Below are positions 8,504 through 63,824 of a stretch of 64,000 nt of DNA, in pieces. Source of the DNA: a virus; IMG/VR virus record IMGVR_UViG_3300047678_000276, positions 1-64,000 of that record; one strand, given 5' to 3'. The first letter of the stretch is position 1. Each line of letters begins with the position of its first letter. A model generated the notes under the pieces. That model was not told the origin of the DNA, did not search any database, and saw nothing but the letters and a program-made list of their open reading frames with translations. The position numbers and the translations under genes are program-made.

Positions 8504-8536
8504 AAAAGAGGAGACTATTTCTAATCTCCTCTTTGT
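8504..8536. terminator. Bidirectional terminator
   Basis: GAGGAGA-ctatttctaa-TCTCCTC with A-run on the left and short T-run on the right. It ends the minus-strand tRNA transcript and could end an orphan plus-strand RNA. Confidence 0.75.
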
Positions 8537-8609
8537 GGACCAGCCTGGGCTCGAACCAGGGACCCTCAGATTATGAGTCTGATGCTCTAACCAACTGAGC
8601 TACAAGTCC
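8536..8609 (-). tRNA. tRNA-Met(CAT)
   Basis: Cloverleaf with acceptor GGACTTG/CTGGTCC, D-arm GCTC/GAGC, anticodon stem CAGA-CTCATAA-TCTG giving anticodon CAT, and TTCGAGC T-loop. No CCA is encoded. Elongator Met is most likely, though a lysidine-modified Ile tRNA also has CAT. Transcribed with the Arg tRNA upstream. Confidence 0.92.
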
Positions 8610-8745
8610 GATTGAAGGCCTGGACTTTACAAAAATAAGCGGAGTGTTTCATCACTACTCGTATCGTTGTACCTTCTGATTAACTTTATTTTTCTGATGC
8701 TAGGTGCAGCTTATTCACCTCTTGACCAGCGATATGGCTGATCTG

Positions 8746-8819
8746 TAGTCCCGATGCGATTCGAACGCATGGCCGCAGGTTTAGAAAACCTGTGCTCTAT
8801 CCAGCTGAGCTACGGAACC
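8746..8819 (-). tRNA. tRNA-Arg(TCT)
   Basis: Acceptor GGTTCCG/CGGGACT, anticodon stem CAGGT-TTTCTAA-ACCTG giving TCT, T-arm ATGCG-TTCGAAT-CGCAT. Reads AGA codons, which suit an AT-rich phage. A possible promoter lies directly upstream (8820-8850). The 136 bases between this tRNA and tRNA-Met contain an AGGTG/CACCT hairpin but no further tRNA. Confidence 0.92.
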
Positions 8820-17912: not shown

Positions 17913-17939
17913 ACCCGTACCAAGATCAAGTCTTGTTTG

Positions 17940-18013
17940 TGAGAAAGGCGTGGAGTTGAACCAGCGACACAAGACTGTTCAGGTCTTTGCTCTACCACCT
18001 GAGCTACTTCCTC
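17940..18013 (-). tRNA. tRNA-Phe(GAA)
   Basis: Acceptor GAGGAAG/CTTTCTC, D-arm GCTC/GAGC, anticodon stem AAGAC-CTGAACA-GTCTT with anticodon GAA, T-loop TTCAACT, discriminator A. No encoded CCA. A class A-like promoter (TTTTAAGC then TTATATTT, 18018-18055) precedes it. Confidence 0.92.
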
Positions 18014-24706: not shown

Positions 24707-24779
24707 TGCGGGTTGGAGAAGGGGTTATCTCGAATGGCTCATAACCATTAGGTCGGTGGTTCGAATCCATCACCCGCTA
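24707..24779 (+). tRNA. tRNA-Met(CAT)
   Basis: Acceptor TGCGGGT/ACCCGCT (first pair T-T mismatched), D-stem GAGA/TCTC, anticodon stem AATGG-CTCATAA-CCATT with CAT, T-arm GGTGG-TTCGAAT-CCATC. An unpaired 1-72 end is an initiator trait, but the anticodon stem lacks the three G-C pairs, so elongator Met is likelier. No encoded CCA. Confidence 0.88.
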
Positions 24780-24781
24780 CT

Positions 24782-24960
24782 AAAAGCCTGAAAGGGCGGA
24801 CACCTAAAACTACCCAATTAAAGCTAGGATATACAAACGGGGACACTAGTACAAGTTTAGGTTAAAGAAATTAAAAGAAATGAACAGAATAATTAACATA
24901 TTAAATGAACGTGAGGAAAGCCAGATGACTGACCTCACTTCGACTATATGTTAATTTAAA
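24782..24960 (+). ncRNA. Candidate structured RNA between tRNAs
   Basis: No ORF. Three nested structures are visible: GCC-tgaaa-GGGC; ACCTAAA pairing with TTTAGGT across about 55 bases; and an 11-bp perfect stem AATTAACATAT/ATATGTTAATT (about 24892-24956) enclosing a GTGAGG/CCTCAC hairpin. It shares a transcript with tRNA-Met and ends in the terminator at 24979-25013. I recognise no known RNA family. Confidence 0.6.
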
Positions 24961-24978
24961 AATATAACTTATCAAGTC

Positions 24979-25013
24979 AAAAGGGTGGTCGCTAAGCGTC
25001 TGCCCTTTTTTTA
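24979..25013 (+). terminator. Rho-independent terminator
   Basis: AAGGGTGGTCGC-TAA-GCGTCTGCCCTT followed by a run of T. It lies between the structured RNA and the two Glu tRNAs, which must come from read-through or an unseen promoter. Confidence 0.75.
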
Positions 25014-25017
25014 TTAT

Positions 25018-25090
25018 GCTCCATTCGTCTAGAGGCCCAGGACGATGCACTTTCACTGCATAAACACGGATTCGAATTCCGTATGGAGTA
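25018..25090 (+). tRNA. tRNA-Glu(TTC)
   Basis: Acceptor GCTCCAT/ATGGAGT, D-arm GTC/GAC, anticodon stem ATGCA-CTTTCAC-TGCAT with TTC, T-arm ACGGA-TTCGAAT-TCCGT. Close to the usual bacterial tRNA-Glu pattern. No encoded CCA. Confidence 0.92.
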
Positions 25091-25099
25091 CAAATTTAT

Positions 25100-25185
25100 C
25101 GTCCGTTAGACTAGCGGTTATGGTCGCTGTGCTTTCACCACAGTGTTTCGAAAGGAGCTCATGGGTTCGAATCCCATACGGACGA
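25100..25185 (+). tRNA. tRNA with TTC anticodon and an extra-long variable arm
   Basis: Acceptor CGTCCGT/ACGGACG, D-arm GAC/GTC, anticodon stem CTGTG-CTTTCAC-CACAG with anticodon TTC (Glu), T-arm ATGGG-TTCGAAT-CCCAT. The variable region is 17 bases and can form GTTTC-GAAA-GGAGC, a class II-like arm normally seen only in Leu, Ser and Tyr tRNAs. Anticodon predicts Glu, architecture does not. Confidence 0.8.
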
Positions 25186-25199
25186 CAATTTTAACATAT

Positions 25200-56813: not shown

Positions 56814-57434
56814 ATGAATCTTAGGAAAATCATAAGGGGTATATTAAACGAGAGCAAGTTTGGGATGTCGTGGGCTTCGCCCATTGATGAGGCTATGGTT
56901 GCTCATGGTAATGTTGGTTCTGATGTGGCATTATTTATTAAGGGCAATGGCACAGTGCGAGATATGACTTTATATGATCCTAAGGAAAATAAGGTATATG
57001 GTCATATTGGCATTCATAAATTGTCCAGCGGTAATTGGGCTGTTGGAGGAGTTGCAGCTGAGCGTGGATATGGGCCATTATTATATGAGCTTGCTATGAC
57101 TTATGTTTACCCTACTGGACTTATGCCGACAAGAGATGGTGATGTTCGTGGTGTGGCTGAAGGTGTGTGGAAAAAATTCTTGGGTAGGGATGATGTTAGA
57201 AAGGAATTTATTGAAGAAGGGGATTCTGATTTTCCTATTAGATATTATGAAGACATGGGAGGGCTTGAGGAGAATCCTGGTTCTGAGTTTATGTATAATA
57301 GATTTTATTATGATGGCGCAGGGGATTTATTGAAGAGGTTAAAAAGGAAGATGTTTGAGTATTTGAGAGCAGGGGTTTCTATAAAGGATGTAGATAGGAA
57401 GGGTAATGAGTATTGGTTAGAGAAATACGATTGA
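56814..57434 (+). CDS. GNAT-like protein with N-terminal head-targeting-like peptide
   Basis: 206 residues. The first 14 residues (MNLRKIIRGILNES) match the basic-hydrophobic start with a (L/I)xE end that also occurs in the kinase-like, GP88 and 63240 proteins. The rest has IGIHKLSSGNWAVGGVAAERGYGPLLYELA, with an R-GYG-P loop like a GNAT acetyl-CoA site. It follows the 55253 gene after four bases. Could be an acetyltransferase injected with phage DNA, which is an inference. Confidence 0.7.
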   Translation: MNLRKIIRGILNESKFGMSWASPIDEAMVAHGNVGSDVALFIKGNGTVRDMTLYDPKENKVYGHIGIHKLSSGNWAVGGVAAERGYGPLLYELAMTYVYPTGLMPTRDGDVRGVAEGVWKKFLGRDDVRKEFIEEGDSDFPIRYYEDMGGLEENPGSEFMYNRFYYDGAGDLLKRLKRKMFEYLRAGVSIKDVDRKGNEYWLEKYD

Positions 57435-57559
57435 TGAAGTGAAATTAGGATGGGACTCTGGGAAAAAAATATGCGGGTGCCGCCTTCGGCGAAAAAAATG
57501 AATATTTATAAAAAAGGAAAAATAAAGATAATGGCGACCTAAATAAAAAACAAACTCTT

Positions 57560-57592
57560 TTAACCCTCTGAAAAAACAGGGGGTTTTTAATT
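57560..57592 (+). terminator. Rho-independent terminator
   Basis: AACCCTCTG-AAAAAA-CAGGGGGTT followed by TTTAAT. It ends the 55253-57434 transcript. Confidence 0.78.
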
Positions 57593-57599
57593 TACAAAA

Positions 57600-57914
57600 A
57601 TGAAATATTGGGTGACCATATTATTTATCTTATTTTCATTCCTTGCTTATTCTCAGAGTGGCGGAAGGATGAAAGAGAGAAAGAATCAAAAGAGACTTGT
57701 GCATCACATTGCAAAGAGTGGATGGCATTACAATCCGACAAGACCTGGCAAGACTCAAAACTACAGAAGAGAGGGGAGAAAATTATTTCATCGAAGCATG
57801 ACAAGAGGGGAAGTATTTAGGTCCAAGTATCAAACTAGGATAAACAGGGATAGGGCGAGAAAAAGAGTGAGGGGTAATTTGGTATTTGCTAAAAAGAAAT
57901 ATAAGAGAGTTTAG
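57600..57914 (+). CDS. Exported basic protein, 104 aa
   Basis: Signal peptide MKYWVTILFILFSFLAYSQS (cut likely after Ser-Gln-Ser), then an extremely basic chain (KNQKRLVHHIAKSG, RRARKRVRGNLVFAKKKYKRV-like). Possibly a cationic envelope-acting protein. Its 3' end overlaps the kinase-like gene on the other strand by 4 bases, so transcription is convergent. Confidence 0.75.
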   Translation: MKYWVTILFILFSFLAYSQSGGRMKERKNQKRLVHHIAKSGWHYNPTRPGKTQNYRREGRKLFHRSMTRGEVFRSKYQTRINRDRARKRVRGNLVFAKKKYKRV

Positions 57915-58663
57915 GATTCTTTTCTCTCTTGATTCATATTTATGTTTTGCATTTTGGGTGATAAGTTTTGATCACCATAGCCAAGGTCAAACATGGCGAG
58001 GTTTCCGCTTTTTTTAATTCCAAGATTTGAAACTCCCCAATCTGTTGATTTTATTTTCCATCCTTTTAATTCTTCTATAATACCGAACATTCCTGTCATG
58101 AACCATATAGTTTTCTCAGCGTCCATATTATTGGAATATTCTGATCTTGCAAAATTACGAATTTCTTTTTTGTATTCTTTTATTTGGTTTTGATCTACGT
58201 GACCATCTATTGCATCTTGAAATATCCACCAAAGAGAATGCCCAAATGTACCTTCAACAAAATCAGATAACCAATCACGACCATTATCAATATCTTCGCT
58301 CTTATCTAGAAGCTCAGAGATGATGACATAGGTTCCTTCGTATTTTCCATGGAGTGCATATACATCATATACATTTGCAAGATGTTTTAAATTCTTGCCC
58401 TTGATCTTAAACGCTTCTACAGCTTCAGATTTATCCTTGGTGATTTTTAGAACTTTGTTGTTTGGAATATAATAGGCAAATCCGCCTGTTCCTTGACCTA
58501 ATGGAGCGACTTTTGATATACCTAGGTGTTTGGTTAGCTTATTTAAGATCTCTGTCTCTTGACCCTTAAATTGATCAACGGGAGACCCTTCTTCAATCTT
58601 CTTCCAAGTTGTGTAATAACTTTCTTTGATGGTGGTTCTAACTATCTTTCTTATGGATTGCAT
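57911..58663 (-). CDS. Protein-kinase-like protein with N-terminal head-targeting-like peptide
   Basis: 250 residues. Starts MQSIRKIVRTTIKES, the shared (L/I)xE leader. A glycine-rich loop (LGQGTGG, 55-61) and a VLKIT lysine (Lys73) begin the kinase fold. A catalytic-loop-like STDWGVSNLGI (Asp208, Asn213) and MFDLGYGD (Asp226, a DFG variant) follow. Likely an atypical Ser/Thr kinase or pseudokinase that could modify host proteins soon after infection. Confidence 0.78.
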   Translation of the reverse strand: MQSIRKIVRTTIKESYYTTWKKIEEGSPVDQFKGQETEILNKLTKHLGISKVAPLGQGTGGFAYYIPNNKVLKITKDKSEAVEAFKIKGKNLKHLANVYDVYALHGKYEGTYVIISELLDKSEDIDNGRDWLSDFVEGTFGHSLWWIFQDAIDGHVDQNQIKEYKKEIRNFARSEYSNNMDAEKTIWFMTGMFGIIEELKGWKIKSTDWGVSNLGIKKSGNLAMFDLGYGDQNLSPKMQNINMNQERKES

Positions 58664-58808
58664 CTTAAGAATAAATAGCTGAAAATTTAAGAAGATTTAA
58701 AGGCTTTTAGTAAGCTATATGTCGGGATTTGTCTTATAATAATATATTTTATTAACAATTTGTTAATATGATTATTTTGTTGTATATTTATAAATAAAGG
58801 AGGTTAAA

Positions 58809-59078
58809 ATGAAAACTATGAAAACAGTTTTGTTCTGCCTTATGTTAACGCTATTATTTTCTGGATTTAGATTTAAAGAAAAAAGCACATCAAGAGTTCT
58901 TCTTGTTTTGGAGAATGTCAATAAAAAAGAAAGTTTCTCAATGTTCTCAATACAAGAAGTGAATGGTATTTTTGTTGGGACCAATATTGATGAGTACAAA
59001 GTTGCGGATGGTATTTATTATATCACAGGCACATCAAATGATAAATTCTATCACAAGAAGATTATCGTTGTTTCTTAA
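58809..59078 (+). CDS. Exported small protein, 89 aa
   Basis: Signal peptide MKTMKTVLFCLMLTLLFSGFRF, then a beta-rich part (RVLLVLENVNKKESFSMF). A strong Shine-Dalgarno sequence (AAAGGAGG, 6 bases before ATG) and a TATTTATAAATAA box upstream, fitting a late gene. Its end overlaps the opposing membrane gene. Confidence 0.75.
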   Translation: MKTMKTVLFCLMLTLLFSGFRFKEKSTSRVLLVLENVNKKESFSMFSIQEVNGIFVGTNIDEYKVADGIYYITGTSNDKFYHKKIIVVS

Positions 59079-59301
59079 ATAGGGCTATCACAGCTAGTAC
59101 AGACCAAATGAAGTTTACGATTGCAGGGGGATAAGACTCTTTGTAAAGGGAAAATATTGTGAGCGTAATCCCTCCGATCAGGTTGGCCACTTTGTATTTT
59201 AATGATAGGGGACTTATTTTATTTAGAGCAACAAAAGAATAGGCCCACATAACGAGTGCTGATCCAATCCAACCTGTTGCTTCTAGAATATAATTAATCA
59301 T
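59062..59301 (-). CDS. Membrane protein, 79 aa
   Basis: Three hydrophobic stretches (MINYILEATGWIGSALVMWAYSFVAL, VANLIGGITLTIFSL, IVNFIWSVLAVIALF). Resembles the small CBU_0592-like membrane family. ATGA overlap with the upstream gene. Confidence 0.78.
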   Translation of the reverse strand: MINYILEATGWIGSALVMWAYSFVALNKISPLSLKYKVANLIGGITLTIFSLYKESYPPAIVNFIWSVLAVIALFKKQR

Positions 59302-59456
59302 TTTAAGAGAAAGTAAAATATAGCAAAGACAACAATTGTGGTCACAACTGTAAGAATTGCGCCTGGGAAACTTTCTTCCAGCTCTTCATTGGTTGCATAA
59401 ATTCCAAATCTAATCAGATTCCAATTTCTTTCTTCGTCTTTGTTTTTGAATTCCAT
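59298..59456 (-). CDS. Small membrane protein, 52 aa
   Basis: Charged first half (MEFKNKDEERNWNLIRFGIYATNEELEESF) and one membrane helix at the end (PGAILTVVTTIVVFAIFYFLLK). GCATATTTATTAAC lies before the ATG, a class D-type box. Coupled to the downstream membrane gene. Confidence 0.7.
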   Translation of the reverse strand: MEFKNKDEERNWNLIRFGIYATNEELEESFPGAILTVVTTIVVFAIFYFLLK

Positions 59457-59457
59457 G

Positions 59458-59667
59458 TTAATAAATATGCGTTATTTCTCTTCCGTCAGGATAACCTATT
59501 CTTATCCAAGCTGCTTGTCTAAACTCTTTGATAATCATTCCTTTAAAATGTTTATTAAGGAGTTTGTTTGCTTCTTCCCAACTGTATGCGGTAAAGTCTT
59601 TTTTTTGGGTTATTCCTGGTGAGTCTGGATGTGAATATTCGACTCTATACATTTTTAAATCATTCAT
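59458..59667 (-). CDS. Hypothetical protein, 69 aa
   Basis: MNDLKMYRVEYSHPDSPGITQKKDFTAYSWEEANKLLNKHFKGMIIKEFRQAAWIRIGYPDG, strand-helix. Start chosen at the ATG overlapping the upstream stop (ATGAATGA). A longer ORF in this frame reads through the upstream gene in the wrong frame and is rejected. Confidence 0.76.
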   Translation of the reverse strand: MNDLKMYRVEYSHPDSPGITQKKDFTAYSWEEANKLLNKHFKGMIIKEFRQAAWIRIGYPDGREITHIY

Positions 59668-60112
59668 CGTCATCGTCATCAACCATCCAACTAGCTTTTT
59701 CCATTCCAAGTTCTTCGAGTGTGTATTTTCCTTCAGAAAGTAATCTCTCGGCGGTCCTAATTCTACACCAGCGGAATAGTTGGTCAAAGCATGGTCTGTC
59801 GAATCCTGCCTCCTTGGCTTGTTTAATAACATCTTCCATGTCCACATCATTTTCATCAAAAATATATGGTGATCCAAATAGGAAGTCGTGTATTTCAATT
59901 TTCCATTTCTTAGCAAATTCATTCTCGCCAACTCCGCAACCTCCGCATGGATCTAGGGAGTTATATTCTAGGGTATATTCAGTCCCAAGGCCTTCTGGAA
60001 ATTCTTCAGACTTTCCTGTGAAATCGCAAATGACTCCGCATTGTTCCATTTGTGGTTTTAATTTCTTTCCTGTCTTGGGGTCGAATCTATCGACCATTTT
60101 ATATAATCTCAT
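59660..60112 (-). CDS. Hypothetical protein, 150 aa
   Basis: MRLYKMVDRFDPKTGKKLKPQMEQCGVICDFTGKSEEF, a DPCGGCGVGENEFAK knuckle (about 54-68), and WCRIRTAERLL. Ends in five Asp plus Glu. A zinc-binding role is possible. It overlaps both neighbours by a few bases. Confidence 0.8.
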   Translation of the reverse strand: MRLYKMVDRFDPKTGKKLKPQMEQCGVICDFTGKSEEFPEGLGTEYTLEYNSLDPCGGCGVGENEFAKKWKIEIHDFLFGSPYIFDENDVDMEDVIKQAKEAGFDRPCFDQLFRWCRIRTAERLLSEGKYTLEELGMEKASWMVDDDDDE

Positions 60113-60321
60113 ATTTTATTTGGCTTTGGTATGTTCATCATTTTGTTTTCTGGGATGGGCATGGCCTGTGGATGTATTCTTCTATCAACTATATTTCCAT
60201 TTGGAAGAATGCCTGCATAACCTTCTCTGTTTGCTTTCATGATGTCGGCTAGATCTGTTCGGCCCATTTGGCGAAGTTGGTCTTCTCTTTCTGAGGAGTT
60301 ATTAAAAAATTCGTCTTTCAT
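60109..60321 (-). CDS. Hypothetical protein, 70 aa
   Basis: MKDEFFNNSSEREDQLRQMGRTDLADIMKANREGYAGILPNGNIVDRRIHPQAMPIPENKM, a recurring small phage protein with conserved REGYAGxLPNGNIVDRR. It overlaps both neighbours by 1-4 bases. Confidence 0.8.
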   Translation of the reverse strand: MKDEFFNNSSEREDQLRQMGRTDLADIMKANREGYAGILPNGNIVDRRIHPQAMPIPENKMMNIPKPNKI

Positions 60322-60965
60322 TATTTGTTTTTATATTCAATGATTGGACAAAATTTGTTTTTTACAGCCATGATGTATTCAAATACAAACCATGTTTTTT
60401 TCTCTTTATCGGTTACTTCTTTAGGAATGTGATACCAATCTTTGGCTTCAGGGTGTTTGGCTATATAATCTGCCTTTCTCTTTTCTTCTTTGATTTCTTT
60501 ACGGCGTTCTAACATGTTGCCTATTAAAATTACAATGCCAATTATAGCGCCTAGAGCTGCGACTAAAAGAACAATAAATACAAATGAGTAATAATAAAGT
60601 GATAAGGCATCTATTATTAAATCATGCCAATTCTTAGATCCTGGGTTTGTTGGTAGGTGTAAAAACGTAAGTGTTGTGCAACATAGTTTCCACCCGAATG
60701 CGCCACCTGCAGCAAGCATGGCAAATCCAACACCAAGAGCATTACAAAGACCTGTTTTATATTGGTGACTGGGGTCACGCTCGTCTTTTCCATATAATTC
60801 TCTTATATTCCAAAGATGGCCCCAAAGGGATATTGGGAATAAAATAATTGAGGATAGGAATACCCAAAAGAACGAGCAAAGACTTTTTGGCAAGCTATCT
60901 GAGTCTTTTATGGCATAGGTTGATCTGATTAATTGTACTTTCCAATTTCTGATATTTAATTGCAT
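60321..60965 (-). CDS. Polytopic membrane protein, 214 aa
   Basis: Four hydrophobic segments (about 30-52, 78-100, 121-150 and nearby) and a basic C-terminal domain (ERRKEIKEEKRKADYIAKHPEAKDWY). First gene of a five- or six-gene minus-strand operon down to 59062. Function unknown. Confidence 0.82.
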   Translation of the reverse strand: MQLNIRNWKVQLIRSTYAIKDSDSLPKSLCSFFWVFLSSIILFPISLWGHLWNIRELYGKDERDPSHQYKTGLCNALGVGFAMLAAGGAFGWKLCCTTLTFLHLPTNPGSKNWHDLIIDALSLYYYSFVFIVLLVAALGAIIGIVILIGNMLERRKEIKEEKRKADYIAKHPEAKDWYHIPKEVTDKEKKTWFVFEYIMAVKNKFCPIIEYKNK

Positions 60966-61070
60966 AATTTTTTAATTTAATTTAGGTCAAATATAATAAA
61001 AACAAAGGAGATGACAAAATTTTGCATGAAGGGTTTTTTGGACTATTTATTGGAAACCTTTTCTGTCATA

Positions 61071-62258
61071 ATGTCAATTAGAAAACTAATAAGAGAAACC
61101 TTAGAGAACCATCTTAATGAGATTGATTGGAATAGGGCATTTTCTGACGTTAAAGGCACTTGTTTAAGTCCTGTGGCGGTTGTTAAGTGGTTAAATGATG
61201 AGCTCGCTAGAATCGATTATAATAAGGAAAATCCCCAAGGAGATAGAATTAAGAGAGGCAAGAAGGATATTATTGTAACAAGAGGGACAATTGAGGATGT
61301 AATGGATGAGAAGGGGACAATTAATATTGACCAATTCATTAAGAACATAACTGCAGAACCTGATTCTATTTTTGAACATAACCCTAAAATGGAGAAGAGT
61401 GATGTGGGTAGGCCACAAGTTACAATGAATACAGGGCTTCCTGCAATTGTTGGTATTGTATATGATCTAGAAAATAAGAAATTTTATTCTGTATCAACAT
61501 GTCCTGGAGCTGGCGCTTGTCAGCTTGGTTGTTATGCGAGAAAGGCGTTTTATGGGATGGACAATTCAAAGACCATGAAACTTACAAGGAGATTAAATTT
61601 ATTATTTAACAATCCTGAGGGGTATAAGGCTAGAATTTTAAGTGAGATTGAGCCAATGGCCAAAAATCTAAAAGTAAGTTCAATTGGAATGCCTCAACAA
61701 ATGCAATTGGTATTAAGATGGAATGATGCTGGAGATTTCTTTGGAGATGCGTATTTTAATATCGCTGTGGAAGTTACAAAGGAGTTGATTGATAAGGGGT
61801 ATAATGTGAAGTCTTATGCTTATACGAAGAATAGCAAGTATTTAATTGCGATGGATAAGAATAAGAATTTCGTTGTAACATTTTCTAGTGATGCTAAACC
61901 TGGAGAATTAAAAAAAGCTCAGGATTATGATGTTAAGGGTAAAATGAAGATGGCTGAGAACGTTCCAAAAGATTTATTTTCAGATATCTTTATTAAAGAA
62001 CATTCTAGCTATAAAAAAGGATATAATGGACTTCCATTATTTTCAAACGAGCAAGCTCCTGAAATATTGAAGAAGAGAATTTATGAAGCTTATAAAGACA
62101 AATATAAGTTTAGTAAGAACAGTTTAAAATATACATTTGAAATGCCTCCGCAAGAAGGTGGAAAAAATGAATATAATTTAATTGTATTGCCGACTGGAGA
62201 TAGTGATATAGGGGCTCAAAGAAAAGACGTTCAGATATCATTCTTATTACAACATTAA
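61071..62258 (+). CDS. GP88-domain protein with N-terminal head-targeting-like peptide, 395 aa
   Basis: Start MSIRKLIRETLENHLNEI at 61071 is chosen because it fits the shared leader peptide. An in-frame ATG at 61011 adds 20 residues. GP88-type core: GLPAIVGIVYDLENKKFYSVSTCPGAGACQLGCYARKAFYG, MQLVLRWNDAGDFFGDAYFNIAVEVTKELIDKGYNVKSYAYTKN, FVVTFSSDA. A longer relative of the 28696-29445 protein. Cys-rich centre. Function unknown. Confidence 0.8.
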   Translation: MSIRKLIRETLENHLNEIDWNRAFSDVKGTCLSPVAVVKWLNDELARIDYNKENPQGDRIKRGKKDIIVTRGTIEDVMDEKGTINIDQFIKNITAEPDSIFEHNPKMEKSDVGRPQVTMNTGLPAIVGIVYDLENKKFYSVSTCPGAGACQLGCYARKAFYGMDNSKTMKLTRRLNLLFNNPEGYKARILSEIEPMAKNLKVSSIGMPQQMQLVLRWNDAGDFFGDAYFNIAVEVTKELIDKGYNVKSYAYTKNSKYLIAMDKNKNFVVTFSSDAKPGELKKAQDYDVKGKMKMAENVPKDLFSDIFIKEHSSYKKGYNGLPLFSNEQAPEILKKRIYEAYKDKYKFSKNSLKYTFEMPPQEGGKNEYNLIVLPTGDSDIGAQRKDVQISFLLQH

Positions 62259-62268
62259 AAATAAAAAT

Positions 62269-63177
62269 ATGAAAAACAAAAAAACGCTTAACGAAGAAAT
62301 GAATAGAATGAAAAAACTTTCTGGACTTCTTAAAGAATCAGAAGGAGATTTTATGGAAGAAAAATCTATTCAAGAGTTTCACAATACAACTTCAAACATT
62401 GAGATCAATGGAAAAAAAGTTGATGTTGGTTCTATTAAAATTGACGGTATTGACAGAGGAGATTATCCTGATTTTTCTGATGCATATGTAACGAGTGCTC
62501 AATTTGAAGATGGTTCTGAGTTAGATGAAGATGAATTAATGGAATTAGACTCTAGTCATGGAGATAAAATTCATGAATTGATTTTTGACAGACAACTTTA
62601 TCTTGAAGAGAGTGAGAAAAACGAATGTATGAATGAAGGCGTTGATGGTGGTGTTCTTACTTATGATGGTCTACCAAATAAAGTTAAAGAATATTTTCAA
62701 AGAAACATTACTATAAGCGTGGCCTTTGTAAAGAAAGATGGATCTGTTAGACATATGGCATTTAGAAGAAGTTTAAAAGCATATGAAAAAAGCGATAAGG
62801 AAAAAACTGACGCTCAGATGAATGTTCTTAAAAACAATAATTTAATGAATGTTTATGACACAAACGTATACATCAAAACCAAAAAAGAAACTGGAGACCC
62901 CGCATTGGCAGCAAAGAGTAGTTTTAGAAACTTCAAACTAGAGAATGTTTTGGCGTTTCTTTGTGGTGGAGAGGTTTTTGACATGAGAGAAAACAACAAG
63001 ATCAAAGAGAGATTTGGAGAAGTGGTTTATGATTCATTAACAAGAAATATGGTTTCGGCCCTAGAAAAGGATGAGGCTGAGGGTGAGATGGGAATGAAGA
63101 CAGATGAGACTATGAATGAATCTATGATTAGGAGAGTTGTAAGGGGTATTATGTTAGATTTTATACCTAAAAAATAA
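62269..63177 (+). CDS. Hypothetical virion-like protein, 302 aa
   Basis: N-terminal LNEEMNRMKKLSGLLKESEGD again has a basic helix ending in LKE. DGRQ-free, acidic middle (YPDFSDAYVTSAQFEDGSELDEDELMELDSS), a basic domain RNITISVAFVKKDGSVRHMAFRRSLKAYEK, and a C-terminal copy-like MNESMIRRVVRGIMLDF. That end looks like another leader peptide. Ten bases after the GP88 gene. Confidence 0.75.
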   Translation: MKNKKTLNEEMNRMKKLSGLLKESEGDFMEEKSIQEFHNTTSNIEINGKKVDVGSIKIDGIDRGDYPDFSDAYVTSAQFEDGSELDEDELMELDSSHGDKIHELIFDRQLYLEESEKNECMNEGVDGGVLTYDGLPNKVKEYFQRNITISVAFVKKDGSVRHMAFRRSLKAYEKSDKEKTDAQMNVLKNNNLMNVYDTNVYIKTKKETGDPALAAKSSFRNFKLENVLAFLCGGEVFDMRENNKIKERFGEVVYDSLTRNMVSALEKDEAEGEMGMKTDETMNESMIRRVVRGIMLDFIPKK

Positions 63178-63239
63178 ACGGCTTTTGGTCTAAAATTACT
63201 TTTTTTGATATATTTATAAACAAACAAATCTATTATACT

Positions 63240-63824
63240 ATGAAAAAACAAATTATATCTGAGTCTAAACTTAGAGAAATAATCAAAGAAGAAGCTCTTA
63301 GAATGAAAAAGAGAATCACTCTTGAGAACGAAAAGAAGACTCTTTTAAAGAAGCTTAATGAAATGTATATGGAAGATAGCGCTTCTGACGACAACACTGA
63401 CGATGGTGAGTGTGACGGTTCAATGGCAGGTGCAATGGGAGAAGGACAAGTAGAAGAAGGCGTTTTTAGTAAGCCTGATTATGCTGCTGACGCTGATCAA
63501 AAACTTGCGCTTCCAGCGTATAAAAAAGCTGCACAAGGACTTATATCTGCTCTTGTTAGAAAAGGCGCAGAAGCTGTTGGTGATTGGGCTAAACACTTCT
63601 TTGAAGGTAAAGACATAACTGATCAAGCTCAAGCTAATGAAGTATTCAGAAACATGCTTGGAACTTATAAAAACCTTTGGAAATCAGCTTATATTGCAAA
63701 CGAAGGAAACATGGCAAATATGTCATTTAATCCTTTAACTGGAGCATTTGAAAAAGGTGCTGGTCCTAGCTCAGGAACTTGGTTTACAGGTTTAACTGGA
63801 GAAGGAAAAGAAGTTAAAAAATAA
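63240..63824 (+). CDS. Hypothetical virion-like protein, 194 aa
   Basis: Starts MKKQIISESKLREIIKEEALRM (IKE motif), then charged coiled-coil, an acidic Asp/Ser/Gly linker, and a helical domain (LALPAYKKAAQGLISALVRKGAEAVGDWAKHFFEGKD). TATATTTATAAACAAACAA precedes it. Resembles an internal head protein by build only. A terminator follows. Confidence 0.72.
   Translation: MKKQIISESKLREIIKEEALRMKKRITLENEKKTLLKKLNEMYMEDSASDDNTDDGECDGSMAGAMGEGQVEEGVFSKPDYAADADQKLALPAYKKAAQGLISALVRKGAEAVGDWAKHFFEGKDITDQAQANEVFRNMLGTYKNLWKSAYIANEGNMANMSFNPLTGAFEKGAGPSSGTWFTGLTGEGKEVKK

Follow-up and report, generated by a model that had tools for sequence, protein, structure and literature searches.

Tagged proteins near the end of the window

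The window analysed here takes in positions 1-64000 of a record, 76,322 bases long, from an uncultured aquatic phage (IMGVR_UViG_3300047678_000276; G000 below), and close to its end lie five genes whose products carry short leader peptides, here called tags, in front of otherwise different proteins. Called genes up to about 53 kb are nearly all on the minus strand, small and unassigned, and both strands are used beyond that point. Gene calls come from a simple open reading frame (ORF) caller made for this analysis, and the tag counts hinge on the thresholds of regular expressions and hidden Markov models (HMMs), with shuffled sequences as controls.

An initial annotation of this DNA had read the five leaders as copies of one motif ending in (L/I)xE. 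All five are present, but they fall into at least two distinct motifs: type A (IRKIIRE...LxE), at 56814, 57911 (minus strand), 61071 and 63240, and type B (LNEE..RMKKLxGLxKE), at 62269 (Table 1). HMMs trained without this genome regain most tags of the record, the 56814 leader weakly, and the 57911 leader is found by regular expression only. For the GP88 gene, 61071 is the most likely start, rather than 61011 or 61026; a longer version of its ORF would contain the TATTTAT motif listed upstream of it. When the search was extended to all proteins, regular expressions and HMMs gave no convincing tag between 1 and 55 kb, and more copies appeared past the window, some of them C-terminal: A at 65142 (minus strand), B twice at 66988, B at 67941 (minus strand), and A-like leaders at 68483 and 72134; an AAA kinase encoded at 67219 (minus strand) has an A tag as its C-terminus.

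The protein labels of the initial annotation fared unevenly. That of GP88 holds, with a PF17338 domain in the body, while "GNAT-like" for the 56814 protein finds no family support; by eye, this protein has a paralogue at 68483 of the same record. "Kinase-like" for the 57911 protein, kept here as a name, derives from motif reading: there is no confident family match (weak Mor/phrog_532, no kinase family), and a PDB search returned nothing meaningful. Its relative in Flavobacterium phage immuto begins MISIYNILKEVIS. Single-sequence AlphaFold models of these two proteins (predicted local distance difference test 43-44; 43 for 56814) draw the tag as helical and are too poor for a fold search.

Table 1. 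Tags, protein bodies and promoter-like motifs between 56 and 64 kb of the window
Feature	Position	Strand	Remarks
Type A tag MNLRKIIRGILNE, followed by S	56814..56852	+	N-terminus of 206-residue protein (56814-57434); sequence, regular expression; HMM without this genome E=0.23
Body of 56814 protein	56853..57434	+	no family match; GNAT-like at best
Kinase-like body	57911..58621	-	40% identity over 47 residues to immuto protein (MW353175 103366-103806)
Type A tag MQSIRKIVRTTIKE, followed by S	58622..58663	-	kinase-like protein (57911-58663); sequence, regular expression only
Promoter-like motif CTATTTATT	58670..58678	-	upstream of kinase-like gene
Promoter-like motif CTATTTATT	61043..61051	+	upstream of GP88 gene
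Type A tag MSIRKLIRETLENHLNE, followed by I	61071..61121	+	GP88 protein; HMM without this genome E=8.5e-4
GP88-domain body	61122..62258	+	PF17338, E=1.9e-21
Type B tag MKNKKTLNEEMNRMKKLSGLLKE, followed by S	62269..62337	+	LNE and LKE on either side; HMM without this genome E=6.9e-5
Body of 62269 protein	62338..63114	+	weak WYL_2 match; relatives of body bear B, C or A tags
A-like C-terminal piece of 62269 protein, NESMIRRVVRGIMLDFIPKK (NESMIRRVVRGIM)	63115..63174	+	regular expression
Promoter-like motif ATATTTATA	63210..63218	+	upstream of 63240 gene
Type A tag MKKQIISESKLREIIKE, followed by E	63240..63290	+	HMM without this genome E=1e-3
Body of 63240 protein	63291..63824	+	no family match

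Conservation of the tags and the scaffold terminus

Tripeptides of the form (L/I)xE are common, so such a site alone is weak evidence. The type B regular expression gave 35 N-terminal and 35 C-terminal matches, as against 1.25 and 0.3 in shuffles, and the type A expression 63 N-terminal matches against 2.6. Directly behind the tag stood an (L/I)xE site in 26 of 31 type B cases (1.7 expected) and 32 of 46 type A cases (8.1 expected, a figure slightly low because the motif itself has to end in a hydrophobic residue). The shared leaders are real, and the tag cores occur far beyond chance. Alignment of 105 representatives places conserved columns only in the tag, the Glu of LxE being present in at least 90%.

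DNA patterns for the tag cores were also run over a viral collection and gave 195 matches (131 B and 64 A), of which 185 are at most 12 codons away from the first ATG in their frame (127/131 B, 58/64 A); a strict A-type pattern with an N-terminal ATG matched nothing, and a looser one matched 62 stretches. With type B, an (L/I)xE site stands at most nine residues past the core in 96 of 99 distinct proteins, a count restricted to this type because Glu is part of the search pattern for type A. The 145 bodies behind scanned tags form 108 families without mutual match, and a separate set of 174 forms 103. It is the peptide and not the DNA that is conserved, since 38 different DNA versions encode the 97 copies of one peptide, NEIKRMQQLAG. 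At L132:5233-6457 three adjacent genes with different bodies have the identical leader MKTHKLKVTLNEIKRM.

The B-tag DNA pattern led to a 171.7-kb genome (G002) that encodes a T4-like portal, a prohead protease (phrog_207, E 8e-54) and a capsid protein (phrog_138). A second genome of 222 kb (G005) is closer to the phage of this record (54% identity in a guaB-like protein, up to 86% in small proteins, and 57% over 37 N-terminal residues between the 63240 protein and a G005 protein) and also encodes protease and capsid protein. Tagged proteins number 17 in G002 and 22 in G005. Two further tag types are found in relatives, C (FDLKKFLVENKLT) and D (MIKLIDLLNE), and immuto, a cultured relative of G002 (capsid 61% identity) that infects Flavobacterium sp. 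LMO8, bears all four kinds, with C again as FDLKKFLVENKLT and D as MIKLIDLLTES; starts among its tagged proteins include MENFDLKKFLVENKLT, MKKSQLREIIRKEL, MIKLIDLLTES and MQKLAGIITES. A T4-type protease and capsid protein are both encoded in 11 of 14 further large contigs with tags; the remaining three, with lengths of 90, 91 and 114 kb, are possibly fragments. PHROG families were used for the protease because a Pfam S77 search was silent even in controls. DNA comparison of the record with cultured phages found no similarity, and the GP88 protein as query for relatives found no match.

The scaffold of these viruses, encoded by the gene upstream of the capsid gene, ends in a type B peptide (e.g. 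IVESNDVIARMQKLANIIK; about 68 contigs with a relative of the G002 capsid protein), an apparent link to the tags that the initial annotation had not seen. A profile built from eight B tags on non-scaffold proteins of G000 and G005 recognized the C-terminus in 47 of 69 scaffolds at E<=1 (in 19 of them at E<=0.01); it matched no other part of the scaffolds, and among shuffled sequences one reached E<=1. This match is the strongest single argument, drawn from sequence comparison, that the tags may be a head address. B-type scaffold ends also occur in Rhodothermus phage RM378 (ERIKRLAGL), Microcystis phage Mel-JY01 (VVERMKKLAGIVK) and a 484-kb phage (SRMQKLADIS). Six additional contigs from other clades show them as well, five having a capsid protein that clearly differs (L340, a seventh, belongs to the G002 type). 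Small proteins whose genes adjoin that of the prohead protease have N-termini similar to type A, and in the 484-kb phage (LR756508; L122, 492-39196) small A-tagged proteins form arrays around the capsid genes. Past the window, the protein encoded at 71498-72085 of the record (L001:11499-12086) has a mid-part that matches the G005 scaffold in its conserved core (37% identity over 59 residues, E 1e-7), and may be related to the scaffold or be a second core protein.

Tags appear to be interchangeable between types and between protein ends. The AAA kinase at 67219 has its tag at the C-terminus (NEIRRFVRKVLNE), while its homologues in L252 and L248 (35-37% identity over about 220 residues, E 7e-45) are A-tagged at the N-terminus; WYL_2-type bodies carry B (this window and L043), C (L065) or A tags (G002 gene 214); and the kinase-like body follows an A tag at 57911 and a D-like start in immuto. 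Most tagged proteins are small and without known domain, and a Pfam scan of the 105 representatives found seven families with one member each. Tagged enzymes in G005 are an Fe/Mn superoxide dismutase (D), a polyA-polymerase/CCA-type nucleotidyltransferase (A) and a GH108 lysozyme (A). The dismutase (L110:1596-2321) is complete and has the D-type leader MNLKIVDILREG; a polyphosphate kinase 2 with a B-like leader is encoded at L119:220-1320 (G006), its family match being assigned to the protein by sequence.

Tagged genes also have in common a promoter-like motif, (A/C/T)TATTTAT(A/T), shortly upstream. It precedes 6 of the 7 operon-leading tagged genes in this record versus 5 of 93 others (p 2.6e-6), and in G005, where protease and scaffold genes bear it too, 18/20 versus 43/151 (p 1.4e-7); in the scanned contigs TATTTAT lies at most 60 bases from 73 of 192 tag genes, versus 9 for the reversed motif. 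Because the motif is short and AT-rich, with 30 copies across the whole window versus 20 expected, only its placement is informative. The motif is compatible with joint late expression of tagged and head genes, which it fits without proving. TATTTAT is also seen upstream of some untagged genes (11799, 14548, 58809 and 65908), including those of SprT-like and apparent GIY-YIG-type proteins.

Proposed role of the tags and rival explanations

We hypothesize, with considerable confidence, that the leaders act as capsid-targeting tags by mimicking the scaffold, and that the prohead protease trims them. The initial annotation had proposed head targeting and trimming after (L/I)xE, and as a prediction this gains good support from comparison: the B tag equals the scaffold end, relatives encode a phrog_207 protease, the Glu is conserved, and the promoter-like motif is common to the tagged genes and to the protease and scaffold genes of a relative. 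Each tag would be a short amphipathic helix imitating a piece of the prohead core, with type B taking the docking place of the scaffold C-terminus, probably on the inner capsid shell or core, and type A providing a second core contact. A tagged protein would be made late with the head proteins and drawn into the growing prohead, where cleavage after (L/I)xE by the prohead protease would remove the tag and set the cargo free within the head; the freed cargo could exit with the DNA at infection. We infer that packaging and trimming probably take place, and that injection may well follow. Together the comparisons suggest that dozens of proteins are packed in the head, and perhaps delivered to the host, by means of a common address label.

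Several points weigh against this proposal. Genes for prohead protease, scaffold and capsid protein were not found in the 76-kb record, which may be a fragment; the C-terminus of T4 gp22 has no B peptide; and no virion proteomics of immuto was found in the literature. The similarity of type A to an internal scaffold helix, LKDIIRDI, is just marginal by HMM (E about 0.5), and a copy of that helix is not claimed; nor is type A ascribed to all proteins encoded between portal and protease, of which a G000 and G005 profile matched 5 of 147, a weak result by independent HMM, though the resemblance is clear by eye in several clades. Terminase N-termini resemble type A by regular expression, and were taken as unrelated and excluded. 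A further weakness is the shortness of tags A and D. Small D-tagged proteins stand among neck genes in some cases, and a small A-tagged protein adjoins baseplate genes in G002 (L014:9211-9552) and immuto (L097:21526-21945), locations that count against the proposal because pure head targeting does not predict them.

Among the alternatives, the tags may recruit proteins to the prohead core as sacrificial or structural components, like T4 gp67 and gp68, to be degraded or retained in the head, with few or no injected effectors. This would account for the small size and missing domains of most tagged proteins, for the position of some A-tagged proteins, encoded between portal and protease or next to the latter, which is where T4 has gp67/gp68, and for the B peptide on the scaffold itself. 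The complete enzymes among the tagged proteins (superoxide dismutase, nucleotidyltransferase, lysozyme, polyphosphate kinase 2, AAA kinase) speak against it, as do the more than 100 unrelated families, which exceed the needs of a core, and we consider it possible and rather unlikely. A general assembly peptide, one that recruits a chaperone such as a phage-encoded GroEL for head and tail proteins alike, would fit the tagged neighbours of baseplate and neck genes and the GroEL and GroES encoded by immuto (and apparently, by reading, by G002); it is improbable, as the main tail sheath, tube and fibre proteins of G002 and immuto are untagged, tag B equals the scaffold end, and a protease-type site stands behind the tag. 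An address to somewhere else, such as the membrane or a phage replication compartment, is more doubtful again: basic amphipathic helices can bind membranes, and T4 proheads are themselves assembled on the membrane, but use at both termini, a B tag that equals the scaffold end, and a conserved LxE behind the tag are unexpected for it. That the leader is a functionless 5' segment common to genes through recombination, as the three adjacent genes with one leader might suggest, is barely credible given the codon variation of a single peptide, the existence of C-terminal tags and the homologous bodies with different tags.

Elsewhere in the window there are six tRNA genes (Met twice, Arg, Phe and Glu twice; 8535-8819, 17939-18013 and 24707-25186). 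Past it, record positions 69908-75586 (L001) hold metabolic genes recognized by motif reading only, namely IMP dehydrogenase/GMP reductase-like, adenylate kinase-like, peptide deformylase-like and NAD synthetase-like.

Comparison with known systems and significance

In phage T4 the 10 N-terminal residues of IPIII suffice for head packaging, with residues 8 and 10 governing the cutting; a Glu to Asp change at the site prevents cutting and leaves targeting intact, and fusions to the capsid-targeting sequence (CTS) bring foreign proteins into the head (PMC9026906). Like the T4 CTS (IPI-IPIII, with prohead protease gp21), the tags are short N-terminal peptides on otherwise different, unrelated proteins with (I/L)xE directly behind; relatives encode a T4-type protease, and D tags equal the CTS in length and format. 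Unlike it, A and B tags are by eye unrelated to MKTYQEFIAE, the sequence that opens IPII/IPIII and is followed by A; B copies a scaffold C-terminus of a kind that T4 gp22 lacks; and the tags stand at either end of proteins of more than 100 families. The tags thus seem to work like the T4 CTS, yet with a different sequence and far wider use.

Other systems share parts of this picture. An N-terminal signal takes the antirestriction protein DarB of phage P1 into the head (PMC9024508), and we set this case apart by its description, which, in the parts of that paper concerned, includes no separate scaffolding system and mentions no short peptide on many proteins. The giant Salmonella phage SPN3US has head proteins cut after xxE by a prohead protease, and many ejected proteins; its site is AxE, its propeptides are mostly long (111-254 residues, two of 20-24), and the portions of the account consulted do not describe them as a reusable tag (PMC10052503). 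The gp22-type scaffold of immuto and its relatives, a capsid-upstream protein, bears the B peptide as its very C-terminus, with an (I/V)xE site ahead of it; the tagged proteins share just that peptide, and those of the window are not scaffolds. A literature search, incomplete in coverage, found no paper describing these tags.

On balance, we think that the terminal peptide of the scaffold serves a large clade of T4-like phages infecting aquatic bacteria as a universal, protease-removable address, at either protein end and on more than 100 unrelated families, so that the set of proteins carried in the virion, and probably injected, would be readable from the genome alone. Only a small number of model systems have provided examples of proteins that phages inject, mostly through proteomics. 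Should the tags indeed serve as head addresses, a simple motif search could predict the internal proteome for hundreds of uncultured phages; many "hypothetical" genes would then gain a place of action, and enzymes such as superoxide dismutase, polyphosphate kinase and those of tRNA-nucleotidyltransferase type would be candidates for delivery at the very start of infection. Scaffold mimicry would also be a testable mechanism, and may offer a tag for loading the heads of Bacteroidota phages with proteins.

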